Part shown: positions 32,889-37,732 of the stretch, piece by piece
Numbering within the stretch: position 1 is the first letter of the stretch
Layout: every line of letters starts with the position of its first letter
Source: Fidelibacterota bacterium
Lineage (GTDB): Bacteria > Pseudomonadota > Alphaproteobacteria > Rhodospirillales > Rhodospirillaceae
Length of the DNA: 40,861 nt
Reading direction: 5' to 3'
Assembly (NCBI GenBank): GCA_947475295.1
Contig: CANJLF010000023.1
Span: 1 to 40,861 of the forward strand
Translations under genes and position numbers: made by a program
The notes under the pieces: generated by a model
The model's database searches: none
What the model saw: only the letters and a program-made list of their open reading frames with translations
What the model was told of the DNA's origin: nothing

Positions 32889-32939
32889 GCGCACAAGATC
32901 GCGAATTGCCGGGCGGTTTGCGGGAGTATTCAAAAGAAA

Positions 32940-32972
32940 AAGGCGCAGCCCGGGTGGGCTGCGCCTTTTTTT
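32940..32972. terminator. Strong intrinsic terminator, probably bidirectional
   Basis: AAGGCGCAGCCC (32940-32951) pairs perfectly with GGGCTGCGCCTT (32956-32967), loop GGGT, followed by a run of T to 32972. On the other strand the A run before the stem gives U residues too, so it can stop both the FkbM gene and the convergent molybdenum hydroxylase gene. Confidence 0.9.
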
Positions 32973-32986
32973 AAGGAACCGAAGAA

Positions 32987-35209
32987 CTAGACCGCAGCGG
33001 TGCCGCGGATGGATTTGTTCAAGGGTATATCGCGCAGACGCTGGCCGCTGGCGGCGAAGATCGCATTTGCGATTGCCGGCAGTGTCGGCGGCAGGGCCGG
33101 TTCGCCAAGGCCCGTGGGCGGGTTATTCGACAGAAGGAAATGCACCTCGACCGGCGCGGCCTGTTTCATGCGAAGGGCCGTATAGGTGTCGAAGTTTCCC
33201 TGCACCGTGCTGCCGCGGGCGATGGTGATTTCCTGGCCCATGACCTGGGCGATGCCGTCGAGGACCGCGCCCTGCATTTGATTCTCAGCGCCCGACGGAT
33301 TGACGATGTGGCTGCCAACGTCGGCAACGGCCCAGACCTTGTTGATCTTCACCGCATTGACGCTAAGCGGCACATCGGGTGTGACCGTGACTTCCGCCAC
33401 ATGGGCGACGTAACCCGAGTGGGAGAAGTAATAAGCCAGACCCATGCCCGTACCCTTCGGCAATTCGCGTTTGCCCCAGCCGGCCTTCTCGGTCACCAGC
33501 TTCAAGACCGCGCTCATGCGTGCGGAATCGAAGGGCAGCGGCGTGGGGGACTTTGCGCGGTGTTCGCTCAAAAGCTCGAGATGGAATTCCAAAGGATCGC
33601 GTCCCGCCGCATGGGCGACTTCGTCCAGGAACGACTGGAATACCATGGCGAGCGCGTTGCTGCGCGGCGCCCGCATGGGACCGGTCGGCGTACCCAGCGG
33701 CATGAAACTCGCGCTGTAGTCGAGGTTCGGCACAAATTCCGCCGGGAAAATATCGGCCCCGAGGTTGGCGCTGTTCGCGAACTTGCCGTCGCTACCGTAG
33801 GTTTGGAAATGATCCCGGAGTGCGATTAGCTTTCCCGAAGCATCGATGCCGGCCGTGAGAGTGTGGAATCCGCCGGGACGGTAGTGGTCGTGGCGCATGT
33901 CGTCTTCGCGCGTCCACAGCAGTTTCACAGGCACGCCGGCTTCCCGTGAGATCCAGGCGGCCTCCGCCATGAACTCGCAGGTCAGACGCCGGCCAAAGCC
34001 GCCGCCGCCGCGGATCATGTGAACGAGGACATCCTTCTCATCCATGCCGAGCGCTTTTGCAGCCTGAGCGCGGCCGGCGGCGGGATTCTGGCTCGGTACC
34101 CAGATTTCCACTTTGCCGTCCTTGAAGTGCGCGGTGGCGTTTTGCGGCTCCATGGCCGCATGAGCGAGGAACGGATAGCTGTAAGAGGCTGTGATGACTT
34201 TCGCCGCGCCTTTGAGCGCCGCGTCCACATCACCGTCGGTACGCACCGACAATTCGGGCTTCTGCTTGGCGAGTTCAGCGGCGCGTGCGGCAAAGCCGAC
34301 GCTGCTTTGCGACTTCGACGCGGGCTCTTTCCATTCGACCCGCAGCTTGCCGCGCGCGGTTTTCGCTTGCCACCAAGTATCGGCGACAATCGCGACACCG
34401 CCAGCTAGCCCTGCGCCAAGGTTCACTTCGCCCGGCGCTAATGTTCCCGCAACGATGAAGGCGTGACGCACGCCTGGCATGGCTTTAACTTCGTCGAGAT
34501 TGGCGCTGGCAACTGTGCCGCCGAAAACCGGGCACTTTTCATAAACCGCATACAACATGCCCGGCACAGACACATCGATGCCGAACAGCGGTTGCCCGGT
34601 GACGATCTTGGGGCCGTCGATATCCTTTGTGCGCTGGCCGATGATCTTGAAGGCCGTCGGATCTTTGAGAGCGACAGTTTTAAGATCCGGCACCGGCACA
34701 GTCGCGGCCGTAGCGGCGAGCGCGCCGTAGCTCAGCGAGCGCTTGGAGGCAGCGTGAATTACATTGCCGCCTGAGGTGGTCAACTCACTTGCCGGCACCT
34801 TCAACGTCTTCGCGGCGGCGGAGACCAACATCTGCCGGCCGGCCGCGCCGACGCGGCGCAGGGTGTCCCAGTTACGCGGGATCGACGTGCTGCCGCCGGC
34901 GGACTGCACGCCGTACTTGTCGCCATCGACAGCGGCCATCTCGATCCGCACGTTCTTCCAATCCACGTCCAGTTCTTCGGCGATGATCATCGGCAGCGAC
35001 GTCTTGATGCCCTGCCCGACCTCGGGATTTTTGGCGGCGATGGTAACGATACCGTCGGCGGCGATGCGGACGTACGCATTGAGTGTCGCCTCGGTGGGAC
35101 CGAGGGCCGCGAAGGCCGGCACGCTGAAGCTGAGCATGAGACCGCCGCCGGTGACGGCGCTGGCCTTCAGGAACATGCGGCGTGAAACTTTGGAACGAAT
35201 GGCGTTCAT
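32987..35209 (-). CDS. Tat-exported molybdopterin-binding large subunit (IorB-like), copy 2
   Basis: The 740-residue protein is collinear with 22576-24840 and closely similar throughout: Tat signal [58 protein letters not shown] (three residues shorter than copy 1 at this point), GTPTGPMRAPRSNAL, and the active-site Glu in [23 protein letters not shown]. It probably oxidises a different substrate from copy 1, since pocket segments vary. The 2Fe-2S subunit is just 2 bp upstream. No cytochrome partner is seen. ATG 35209. Confidence 0.9.
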   Translation of the reverse strand: MNAIRSKVSRRMFLKASAVTGGGLMLSFSVPAFAALGPTEATLNAYVRIAADGIVTIAAKNPEVGQGIKTSLPMIIAEELDVDWKNVRIEMAAVDGDKYGVQSAGGSTSIPRNWDTLRRVGAAGRQMLVSAAAKTLKVPASELTTSGGNVIHAASKRSLSYGALAATAATVPVPDLKTVALKDPTAFKIIGQRTKDIDGPKIVTGQPLFGIDVSVPGMLYAVYEKCPVFGGTVASANLDEVKAMPGVRHAFIVAGTLAPGEVNLGAGLAGGVAIVADTWWQAKTARGKLRVEWKEPASKSQSSVGFAARAAELAKQKPELSVRTDGDVDAALKGAAKVITASYSYPFLAHAAMEPQNATAHFKDGKVEIWVPSQNPAAGRAQAAKALGMDEKDVLVHMIRGGGGFGRRLTCEFMAEAAWISREAGVPVKLLWTREDDMRHDHYRPGGFHTLTAGIDASGKLIALRDHFQTYGSDGKFANSANLGADIFPAEFVPNLDYSASFMPLGTPTGPMRAPRSNALAMVFQSFLDEVAHAAGRDPLEFHLELLSEHRAKSPTPLPFDSARMSAVLKLVTEKAGWGKRELPKGTGMGLAYYFSHSGYVAHVAEVTVTPDVPLSVNAVKINKVWAVADVGSHIVNPSGAENQMQGAVLDGIAQVMGQEITIARGSTVQGNFDTYTALRMKQAAPVEVHFLLSNNPPTGLGEPALPPTLPAIANAIFAASGQRLRDIPLNKSIRGTAAV

Positions 35210-35837: not shown

Positions 35838-36626
35838 TTAGACCGTCGGCGCGATAAAGGCCGTCATTTGCGCAACCGTTTTATCGTACCGGGATGGGGG
35901 AGGCGCCTGGGCTACGCCTGCCAGAATATCCTCGCCGGCCAGCCAGCGGGCCTCGGCCCTTTCGGTAGCCAAAATGGTAACGAGAGCTTGGTTCATTTCA
36001 TAAACGGTGACGGGCAACCCGGCGAGCCGTAAGGCCGCCGTATAGAGCATCCGGCAGGTGTCCAGCATCGCAACATTCAGGCCTGGTATAGGAATGTTCG
36101 GGGGCTCGCCGTCTGCAAGGCCCGCAATGCAGGCTTTTAAATCCATCGATACAAAGCCGTGGCAAGACAGGGGCCGTGCCGCATAGACCGAACAAACGGC
36201 GTCATCGAGCAAGGGACAGGAGACTTTACTCCGCAAGCGGGCCTTTACCGTAAGGCCGCCGGTGAGGCTGTGGGCCTGCCCAATGGTAGCCACAGTCTTA
36301 GGCCGTTCGCGGAGCTGCGCGGCCACAAAAAAGGCTTCCGGCGCCGTGAGCGTAACCATTTGAGAACAGCAATAAGAACAACCTTTGCGGCAAGCCAGGG
36401 GCTGTTCCGGCGTCTCCGGAACGCTGCGGTCGAAAAGACCGGCGACGTGCGCCACGGCCTCGGAGCACGGCGATGTCGACTGAGGATCGCGCAGCAAACG
36501 AACAAGATGGCGGACATGGGCTGCCAGAGGGCGGGGGTCCGCGCTCAACTGCAGAGGCAAAGGCAGGAACGCTTCATCCTCGCGCTGTAACGCGCGGTGT
36601 TCCGGACGGGAAAGCCCATCTGTCAT
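35838..36626 (-). CDS. YkgJ-family cysteine cluster protein, paralog 2
   Basis: The 262-residue protein shares the layout of its neighbours: head DGLSRPEHRALQREDEAFLPLP, SPCSEAVAHVAGLFDRSVPE, CRKGCSYCC, CPLLDDAVCSVYAARPLSCHGF, and a C-terminal FIAPTV. The cysteine sets suggest a bound metal centre. It starts at ATG 36626, 15 bp after paralog 3's stop, so the two are one operon transcribed leftward; an in-frame GTG at 36638 is less likely. Function unknown. Confidence 0.82.
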   Translation of the reverse strand: MTDGLSRPEHRALQREDEAFLPLPLQLSADPRPLAAHVRHLVRLLRDPQSTSPCSEAVAHVAGLFDRSVPETPEQPLACRKGCSYCCSQMVTLTAPEAFFVAAQLRERPKTVATIGQAHSLTGGLTVKARLRSKVSCPLLDDAVCSVYAARPLSCHGFVSMDLKACIAGLADGEPPNIPIPGLNVAMLDTCRMLYTAALRLAGLPVTVYEMNQALVTILATERAEARWLAGEDILAGVAQAPPPSRYDKTVAQMTAFIAPTV

Positions 36627-36641
36627 TGCCGATCCCACTCC

Positions 36642-37433
36642 CTATACTGTCGGCGCGACAAACGCGGCCAACTCGGCGATGGCCTTATCGTACTGAGGCG
36701 GCGGAGGGGCCTTGGCCGGGACGCCGGCCAGGATATTCTCGCCGGCGAGCCAACGGGCCTCGGCCTTGTCCGTGGCGAAAATGGTGGCCAGAACCTCGTT
36801 CATCTCATAGGCGGCATCGGGCAGGCCGGCGAGCCGTAAGGCAGCCATATAGAGCATGCGACAGGTCTCAAGCGTCGTGACATTGAGCTGGGGTGTTGGG
36901 ATGTCGGGGGGCGCGCCGCGCTCGAAGGCGGCAAGACAGGCCTCCAAGTTGAGCGACACAAAGCCGTGGCACGCCAGGGGCCGCGCGGCATAGACCGAGC
37001 AGATCGCATCCTCGAGCAAGGGGCACCAGATCTTGCTGTGCAGGCGTTCGTGGAGCGTGAGGCCTTGGGCGCGGCTGTTGGCTTCGACAATGGCGGCCAC
37101 TGTCTTAGGCCGTTTGCGGAGCTGCGCGGCCACAAAAAAAGCCTCGGGCGCCGTCAGCACAACCATCTGCACGCAGCAATGGGAGCAACCTTTGCGGCAG
37201 GCCAGCGGCGCGGCCGGTGTAGGCGGGACGCTGCGGTCGAAAAGGCCGGTGATATGCGCAACGGCTGCGGAGCACGGCGAATTCGCCTGGGGATCGCGCA
37301 GCAGGTGAACAATATGGCGGATGTGGGCGGCCACGGGCCGGGGGTCACCATTGAGTACGAGGGGCAAAGACAGGAGCGCTTCATCCGCGCGCTGCAATGC
37401 GCGGCGTTCCGGTCGTGAAAGCCTGGCTGTCAT
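36642..37433 (-). CDS. YkgJ-family cysteine cluster protein, paralog 3
   Basis: The 263-residue protein is the closest relative of paralog 2 (CRKGCSHCC, CPLLEDAICSVYAARPLACHGF, LETCRMLYMAALRLAGLPDAAYEMNEVLATI, ending FVAPTV), pointing to a tandem duplication. Between the cysteine sets is a lysine/arginine-rich helix (RKRPKTVAAIVEAN). ATG 37433 is fixed by AAGGGA; the longer frame from 37478 lies in the repeat region. First gene of the operon. Its leader abuts the palindromic elements at 37453-37615. Confidence 0.82.
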   Translation of the reverse strand: MTARLSRPERRALQRADEALLSLPLVLNGDPRPVAAHIRHIVHLLRDPQANSPCSAAVAHITGLFDRSVPPTPAAPLACRKGCSHCCVQMVVLTAPEAFFVAAQLRKRPKTVAAIVEANSRAQGLTLHERLHSKIWCPLLEDAICSVYAARPLACHGFVSLNLEACLAAFERGAPPDIPTPQLNVTTLETCRMLYMAALRLAGLPDAAYEMNEVLATIFATDKAEARWLAGENILAGVPAKAPPPPQYDKAIAELAAFVAPTV

Positions 37434-37452
37434 TGTTGAATCCCTTTCCCCA

Positions 37453-37527
37453 AGTGGAGCGGATTTGACATTCGCCACCGATCCCGCCGCGGAACCCCGA
37501 GGCGAATGTCAAATCCTAAGCTCCACT
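37453..37527. repeat. Long imperfect palindrome, element 1 (REP/REPIN-like)
   Basis: A 24-nt left arm (37453-37476, AGTGGAGC then GGATTTGACATTCGCC) is complementary to the right arm (37501-37527) except for a 3-nt bulge (TAA, 37517-37519), around a 24-nt GC-rich spacer. It lies between divergent genes, upstream of the YkgJ operon. No coding capacity. Confidence 0.8.
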
Positions 37528-37549
37528 AGATTCTATAGATATCTAGTGG
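37523..37549. repeat. Palindromic linker between elements 1 and 2
   Basis: CCACTAGAT (37523-37531) and ATCTAGTGG (37541-37549) are exact complements around a 9-nt AT-rich loop. The arms are the outer ends of the two large elements, so three hairpins are stacked or mutually exclusive. Confidence 0.7.
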
Positions 37550-37615
37550 CCCTTTGATTCTAACATTCGCAAGGTCGCCCGCCGAACTCGGGTGCGAATG
37601 TTAGAATCGGGCCAC
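37545..37615. repeat. Long imperfect palindrome, element 2 (REP/REPIN-like)
   Basis: A left arm (37545-37571, AGTGGCCC, TTT, GATTCTAACATTCGCA) pairs with 37593-37615 apart from a 3-nt bulge (TTT, 37553-37555), around a 21-nt spacer. Arms and spacer are clearly related to element 1 (shared ACATTCGC, cccgccg and gaac) but not identical, so this is a diverged second member. Confidence 0.8.
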
Positions 37616-37732
37616 GAGTATCGACACTACGGCGGTGAAAAGGCGCTCACAAGAAGGGACCTCGCCCGCTGTACCTACCCAGGCGGCACAAGTTCCGCTA
37701 AACCAAGGGCACCTATGGCAGACGGAGCGACA

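Follow-up and report, generated by a model that had tools for sequence, protein, structure and literature searches.

A short intergenic stretch of the window, as we call the entire DNA analysed (40,861 bases), is likely to be a non-autonomous mobile element of approximately 164–170 bp, composed of two distinct bulged hairpins in inverted orientation, that inserts at CTAG or a near match of it and has been amplified within lineages. The element occurs in repeated copies, its sites are empty in relatives, different relatives carry sub-families of it, and the paired positions of its arms covary.

Anatomy and covariation of the two hairpins

The preliminary description of this stretch had proposed a tandem pair of long bulged palindromes, and the pair is real. 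The element contains two perfect inverted repeats, 37461–37516 and 37556–37608, and a search for exact arms of 15 with a spacer of 3–40 returned just these two and a further one at 32937–32970 in the 40,861 bases; when the window was shuffled base by base 20 times, the same criteria gave none. A single-stranded DNA fold of the element reaches −56.8 kcal/mol, compared with a shuffle mean of −21.8 (z = −11.6). The two hairpins, designated A and B (Table 1), have 25-bp arms each, with a 3-nt bulge that faces the linker. In order, hairpin A consists of the outer arm CAAGTGGAGC, the inner arm GGATTTGACATTCGC, the loop, the inner arm GCGAATGTCAAATCC, the bulge TAA and the outer arm GCTCCACTAG, and hairpin B of the outer arm CTAGTGGCCC, the bulge TTT, the inner arm GATTCTAACATTCGC, the loop, the inner arm GCGAATGTTAGAATC and the outer arm GGGCCACGAG. 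Hairpin B is an inverted relative of A and, judged by eye, the loops also seem related once B is reversed.

Table 1. Coordinates of the element and its parts in the window
Feature	Position	Strand	Basis
Whole element, A to B orientation, 168 bp	37451–37618	+	End-to-end alignment with 12 other source-genome copies
Left outer tetranucleotide, CAAG here, mostly CTAG elsewhere	37451–37454	+	Profile of 142 elements; insertion-site comparisons
Hairpin A 5' arm, TGGAGC + GGATTTGACATTCGC	37455–37475	+	
Hairpin A loop, 26 nt (26 in 46/63 copies), variable sequence	37476–37501	+	
Hairpin A inner 3' arm, GCGAATGTCAAATCC	37502–37516	+	
Hairpin A bulge TAA, linker side (AAA in 36/63 copies)	37517–37519	+	
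Hairpin A outer 3' arm, GCTCCACTAG	37520–37529	+	
Linker, A+T-rich, 13 nt (13 nt in 52/63 copies)	37530–37542	+	
Hairpin B outer 5' arm, CTAGTGGCCC	37543–37552	+	
Hairpin B bulge TTT, linker side (TTT in 36/63 copies)	37553–37555	+	
Hairpin B inner 5' arm, GATTCTAACATTCGC	37556–37570	+	
Hairpin B loop, 23 nt (23 nt in 53/63 copies)	37571–37593	+	
Hairpin B 3' arm, GCGAATGTTAGAATC + GGGCCA	37594–37614	+	
Right outer tetranucleotide, CGAG here, mostly CTAG elsewhere	37615–37618	+	Profile of elements

Comparison with the other copies extends the unit a little on both sides of the stretch where it had first been located, 37453–37615. The third, 27-bp palindrome (37523–37549) that was thought to join the pair turns out to be no separate part; it is formed by the outer arms CCACTAG and CTAGTGG, which stand back to back across the linker. 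The reported arm differences between the hairpins, AGC/GCT versus CCC/GGG, are genuine. The outer arm of hairpin B is TCC/GGA in 11 of the 12 other source-genome copies, so that the CCC/GGG of the window includes a two-sided change. The outer letters of the window copy mismatch their inner partners, and this copy may be an older, drifting insertion.

Covariation was assessed on 63 aligned copies selected for full length, comprising the 13 of the source genome and 50 of 101 others. Pairing is kept in 95.7% of cells, and two-sided changes are present in 25 of 50 pairs (5.9 in shuffles, 8–13 in slid versions) and in 69 cells (13.4 in shuffles); the source-genome copies alone give five such pairs compared with 1.2 in shuffles. 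The compensation of arm changes suggested at the outset is thereby borne out across copies. Since template switching in replication can keep palindromes perfect, covariation alone is no proof of selection for the fold. Identity amounts to 96–99% in the inner arms, 89–96% in the outer arms (seven inner letters) and 66–72% in the loops, the arm values being inflated by the detection of the copies via their arms. Loop and linker lengths are nearly fixed despite the drift of the loops, and conservation of the arms is much the same on the linker side as on the end side. Among single-step mismatches there are 43 G–U and 53 A–C (hairpin A, 17 versus 30, p 0.08; hairpin B, 26 versus 23, p 0.78). An RNA fold of the strand would favour G–U; as G–U is not the commoner mismatch, the constraint appears to lie in DNA, which suggests that pairing matters at the DNA level rather than in RNA.

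Conserved arms, drifting loops and preserved loop and linker lengths would also be expected of a resident regulatory or chromosome-organising element under host selection, such as an RNA hairpin, a protein-binding palindrome or a CcrM-associated repeat, and the stem of hairpin B matches GANTC, with GATTC in 52 and GAATC in 51 of the 63 copies. We consider a resident element improbable: the mismatches do not favour G–U, and GANTC is present in just 15 of 63 linkers and one of 63 A 5' arms. The distribution and insertion sites described below bear on this alternative as well.

Distribution, insertion sites and neighbouring genes

The source genome (2.70 Mb, 43 contigs, 97% complete) contains 13 full copies, with a pairwise identity of 71–92% (mean 82%), and two single-ended relics (C9:3087 and C24:28290), so that the search proposed at the outset found far more than a single occurrence. 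The exact core pattern is present in 15 of the 73 genomes of the family and in eight of 19 in the source genus, while a reversed control pattern has no match in the 73. The 11 source-genus genomes without an exact match argue against a resident element, with the qualification that partial BLAST matches exist in some others (G052 and G059, for example). Of 387 evenly drawn Alphaproteobacteria, three have the pattern; one of these is the source genome, and another, with a single match of different sequence, is probably due to chance.

Named genomes contain at least 118 matching stretches. Among the 80 titles listed, most belong to Xanthobacteraceae (Bradyrhizobium, Afipia, Nitrobacter, Rhodoplanes) and Rhodospirillaceae, with one Mesorhizobium; the family was also found in Rhizobiaceae. 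A search for distant relatives with a Hyphomicrobiales copy (L094) recovered 12 plasmid records, five with a query coverage of 80% or more, from Labrenzia, Roseibium, Martelella, Aminobacter, Rhizobium, Bradyrhizobium and Agrobacterium. The spread of the family across alphaproteobacteria is thus wide but patchy. An Omnitrophota match among those listed (L120) lacks the element arms. A contig labelled Betaproteobacteria (L139) carries a full element of Xanthobacteraceae type, through misbinning or transfer. Phage records yielded no element match; seven IMG/VR contigs (L328–L334) match the core pattern, either as phage DNA or as host flanks. A search of the whole window against Rfam gave no match at the gathering score, two microRNA matches being far below threshold.

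Four insertion sites could be compared with unoccupied counterparts. The site between fmt and truA, occupied in the source genome, is empty in all 17 relatives that have both flanks; the length of this gap varies among relatives, so that the site demonstrates absence and not the exact target. In two relatives (G051 and G047; L253 and L254) the same gap holds another inverted-repeat element, GGGGTCAGATACGAA ... TTCGTGTCTGACCC. The mgtE site is empty in 15 of 15 relatives compared, with CTCTAG exactly at the start of the source element in two (G061, G053), another NTAG in six and another stop in seven; its right flank is unalignable, and the site is consistent with a gain of the core plus a tetranucleotide. 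At the ftsX-like gene 16 of 16 relatives are empty. The distance between anchors is 76 nt in three of them (G050, G060, G049) and 77–133 in the rest, and the source genome likewise has 76 if one tetranucleotide is kept; the matching stop is CTAG in two (G060, G051), another NTAG in five and another stop in nine, the left letters of the source being ATAG. No element end was seen in the loci of relatives fetched for these three sites, the best having at least six mismatches in 21. The fourth copy, on a Martelella plasmid, lies inside group II intron sequence with CTAG on both sides; the two relatives read at this point show four letters in its place, CTGA. Among the rows listed there was no usable empty site near the plasmid copies of Labrenzia, Aminobacter and Bradyrhizobium.

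Together with the 13 copies, the three source-genome sites that are empty in all relatives compared support the earlier suggestion of a small non-autonomous mobile element; these empty sites also speak against a resident one. Two junctions (ftsX-like and Martelella) fit the gain of the core and one tetranucleotide; that most relatives lack CTAG at the source-genome insertion points counts against this target. A CTAG-like target is nonetheless well supported, and we conclude that the core and a single tetranucleotide are gained where CTAG or a near match stood. Such an insertion would leave one tetranucleotide of this kind at each end. CTAG is scarce in the window, which has 32, where base frequencies predict 145, dinucleotides 57 and trinucleotides 41. 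Many of the insertions are located at gene ends and between genes, because the tetranucleotide is so scarce and contains TAG, a potential stop codon.

An outer TAG closes an open frame of at least 100 codons at 55 of 284 element ends, and 140 of 792 other CTAG sites in the named loci L083–L200 close such frames, as read mechanically; targeting of stop codons is therefore not favoured beyond CTAG itself. The window copy, first placed between divergent promoters, is situated between divergent genes, a minus-strand CxxCxxCC-domain gene (ATG at 37433) and a plus-strand DUF1194/VWA gene (ATG at about 37715). The element might, as was proposed, affect both operons; no promoter-like site emerged within it from a consensus scan, and the promoter/terminator scan gave one terminator-like site, at 37410–37429, outside it. 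Two adjacent minus-strand genes with the CxxCxxCC domain (PF03692), at 35838–36638 and 36642–37433, are possibly a tandem duplication. The inverted repeat at 32937–32970 lies just past the 3' end of a minus-strand ORF (32987–35209) and may be a terminator. At another locus (L036), a TATAAT-like motif, GGTATAATC, lies between the element and a DUF218 gene, with a similar form in several relatives.

Of 142 places, 20 have the ATG of a long reading frame, taken from mechanical frames and not from annotated genes, no more than 15 nt from the B end, compared with three for the A end (two-sided binomial p 0.0005). This asymmetry might be expected of a resident element; it shrinks, however, to 41 versus 26 within 40 nt, and it could reflect either a preference in insertion or selection against A-end insertions upstream of genes. 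With start codons frequently right beside hairpin B, the element may adjust the expression of neighbours such as truA.

Relatives carry sub-families of their own. In G054, one inner-arm position is A instead of G in 11 of 13 fetched copies, and this A faces G in nine, as a mismatch, and T in two; since this genome kept a mismatch while the element multiplied, not every pair is needed. In G051 a 4-nt bulge is common to four of seven fetched copies. The flanks of the 13 source sites (up to 1.2 kb on each side) had no match at threshold to those of 20 G054 and G051 copies, and one G054/G051 pair has neighbouring sequence in common, without sharing the junction. One or a few master copies multiplying within a lineage would produce such species-specific sub-families. 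Abundance is high in G041 (Rhodospirillaceae FW301_bin.2), with at least 111 forward and at least 103 reverse matches to the end pattern. Short forms, with a core of 57–117 bp, occupy 26 of 142 places, many of them in this genome; what remains in these is the left arm of A, one loop and the right arm of B, the linker-side arms being absent. One of its loci (L227, G041:C100) has four short single-hairpin forms within approximately 4 kb. The short forms could have arisen by deletion between the direct repeats GCGAATGT or ACATTCGC, or could represent a short form that is itself mobile. Unless they are later deletions, they favour recognition of the ends alone, and they could be used to test directly if entire hairpins are required or the ends suffice.

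Terminal tetranucleotides and the search for a mobilising enzyme

The leading alternative is a conventional MITE, in which a CTAG-duplicating DDE insertion sequence would have the outer arms as its terminal inverted repeats and the linker-side arms would be by-products. CTAG-type targets are used by insertion sequences of the IS5 or IS701 type, most of the 142 profiled elements have CTAG at both ends, the two junctions are what a 4-bp duplication would give (mgtE being consistent), and the short forms retain the outer ends alone. Target-site duplication would place the same tetranucleotide at both ends, yet left and right agree at chance level: among the full elements whose inner arms are readable, 107 in number (with 116 exceeding a length of 130), they are identical in 45 compared with 42.9 in shuffles (p 0.27), and neither these nor the 142 elements as a whole show left–right agreement beyond CTAG, although L208 and L218 have equal non-CTAG letters at both ends. 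Each outer tetranucleotide instead matches its own hairpin partner (left, 66 versus 39.1; right, 75 versus 56.9), a value reached in none of 2000 shuffles, and since the letters match their partners far above chance and not each other, they behave as part of each hairpin. This pattern makes duplication of a variable target less likely, whereas duplication of a target that almost always reads CTAG is still compatible with it. The similar conservation of linker-side and end-side arms also weighs against a MITE, and no insertion sequence with the ends of the element was seen in the fetched loci and end listings, which were searched by way of paired ends. Overall, a conventional MITE appears to us a possible, if doubtful, explanation.

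The search for a mobilising gene between or beside element ends found none. None of the 11 lone ends (nine distinct places) of the fetched loci belongs to a pair spanning a gene, and no convergent ends far apart were found by eye in G000, G054, G051, G006 and G337 or among the G041 ends listed. Ten ORFs beside lone ends include no transposase family, two of the ten being without a Pfam match. When 788 ORFs from 118 named loci were compared with one another, recurrent clusters emerged, of which the largest spans 12 loci.

A REP-associated tyrosine transposase (RAYT) was the enzyme first proposed, and it is the one that would move a REPIN proper. The inverted pair of bulged hairpins with a linker is in keeping with this, and outside the source genus Y1_Tnp matches are present in five of seven carriers of the element compared with six of 47 non-carriers (Fisher p 0.0025, uncorrected for kinship). 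Y1_Tnp matches listed in the family number 46, in 29 of 73 genomes; none of the 30 loci examined has element ends beside the gene (about 1.5 kb, less at contig ends), and three carriers, G006 (98% complete), G010 (99%) and G050 (89%), have no Y1_Tnp match. Given these observations and the relatedness of the genomes, the co-occurrence is discounted; moreover, within the source genus Y1_Tnp is present in 11 of 11 non-carriers and seven of eight carriers. With no flanking copies at the loci examined and with carriers that show no Y1_Tnp match, RAYT was rejected as the mobiliser, and a REPIN proper is very unlikely. The only Y1_Tnp gene of the source genome (L082:1410–2193, on C11) is flanked by a different palindromic repeat of its own, of the AATTCGTACCTGGTAC type. 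Three or four GTACCNGGTAC sites are present at 13 of the 30 Y1_Tnp loci, 12 of them in the source genus, as in a separate RAYT/REP-like pair.

For the mobile element that we favour, an enzyme encoded elsewhere would recognise both folded hairpins, perhaps on single-stranded DNA, as suggested by the equally strong conservation of linker-side and end-side arms next to drifting loops. IS200/IS605 and RAYT enzymes act on single-stranded DNA. A more specific version, rather unlikely as it stands and offered with due caution, is that this widespread alphaproteobacterial DNA moves as a folded single strand, with an enzyme unrelated to RAYTs reading the paired, asymmetric bulged hairpins and aiming at CTAG. 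If so, it would represent a kind of non-autonomous element with its own class of mobilising enzyme still to be found. Since the family offers unoccupied sites, CTAG as a target and sub-families particular to single lineages, the mobilising enzyme can be sought experimentally.

Comparison with known repeat families

CIR repeats of Caulobacter and Brucella, with two arms and a linker, have reportedly been known since Chen and Shapiro (2003). The passages on CIR in later sources describe two long stem-loops joined by a linker, unlike other bacterial repeats, with GANTC and with a mobility mechanism that is unknown (PMC2229807, PMC10969869); one of them, a review, calls for more information on how these repeats move (PMC2229807). 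The likeness is close, both being alphaproteobacterial, built of two long inverted repeats and a linker, and carrying GANTC (PMC2229807). As described there, however, CIR is approximately 110 bp, compared with 164–170 bp in the 63 copies selected here for full length; its GANTC is at a terminal loop (PMC2229807, PMC10969869), whereas here the motif is mostly in the stem of hairpin B and is present in the A loop of 7 and the B loop of one of the 63 copies; and it is reported as strictly intergenic, whereas group II intron sequence surrounds one copy of the present element. Of the kinds described so far, CIR, compared here through its published description, comes closest.

MITEs resemble the element in being short and non-coding (here about 166 bp) with related inverted ends, CTAGTGG..CCACTAG. 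IS200/IS605 elements have subterminal imperfect hairpins with an unpaired base and a specific short target, the hairpins are in the same orientation, and the elements carry tnpA; the element described here differs in its inverted hairpins and in having no gene. REPINs consist of hairpins in inverted pairs with a short linker, as does the element, in this case with a linker of 13 nt. The resemblance to them extends to small size and to a copy number that varies among related species (PMC3733652). REP units, in the account consulted, are 20–40 bp with a GTAG or CGTC tag (PMC3733652), whereas those of the element are about 75 bp, a size that also counts against a REPIN proper, and have CTAG inside the paired arm with no GTAG or CGTC tag. 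In addition, no flanking RAYT was seen at the Y1_Tnp loci examined, and A and B differ constantly. The initial likening to REPINs thus holds for the inverted two-hairpin anatomy with its linker and fails for unit size, tag and a RAYT flanked by the same repeats.

Br-REP1 and Br-REP2 are likewise intergenic palindromic repeats of Bradyrhizobium and relatives; the text describing them gives Br-REP1 flanking palindromes and assigns Br-REP2 to a larger element, and their printed consensus sequences are unlike the present arms by eye (PMC5082802); a link through the flanking palindromes or the larger element is conceivable. QMITE2, a repeat of 150–190 bp located mostly in 3' untranslated and intergenic sequence, with QMITE2-like sequences in alphaproteobacteria, is described as having variable direct repeats of 7–11 nt and a GTAG REP (PMC5896051); the element has CTAG ends, and no variable duplication was seen. 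The four inner-arm sequences are absent from the text of 5.39 million published articles, figures and supplements aside. Given the length and GANTC placement of CIR, the size, tag and RAYT of REPINs, the different sequences of Br-REP1 and Br-REP2 and the absence of the arms from article text, we therefore assign the element to no named family, with CIR compared by description and Br-REP1/2 by eye, and regard it as representing a new family of non-autonomous mobile repeats that have two hairpins and target CTAG, set apart by description from its closest counterpart, CIR.
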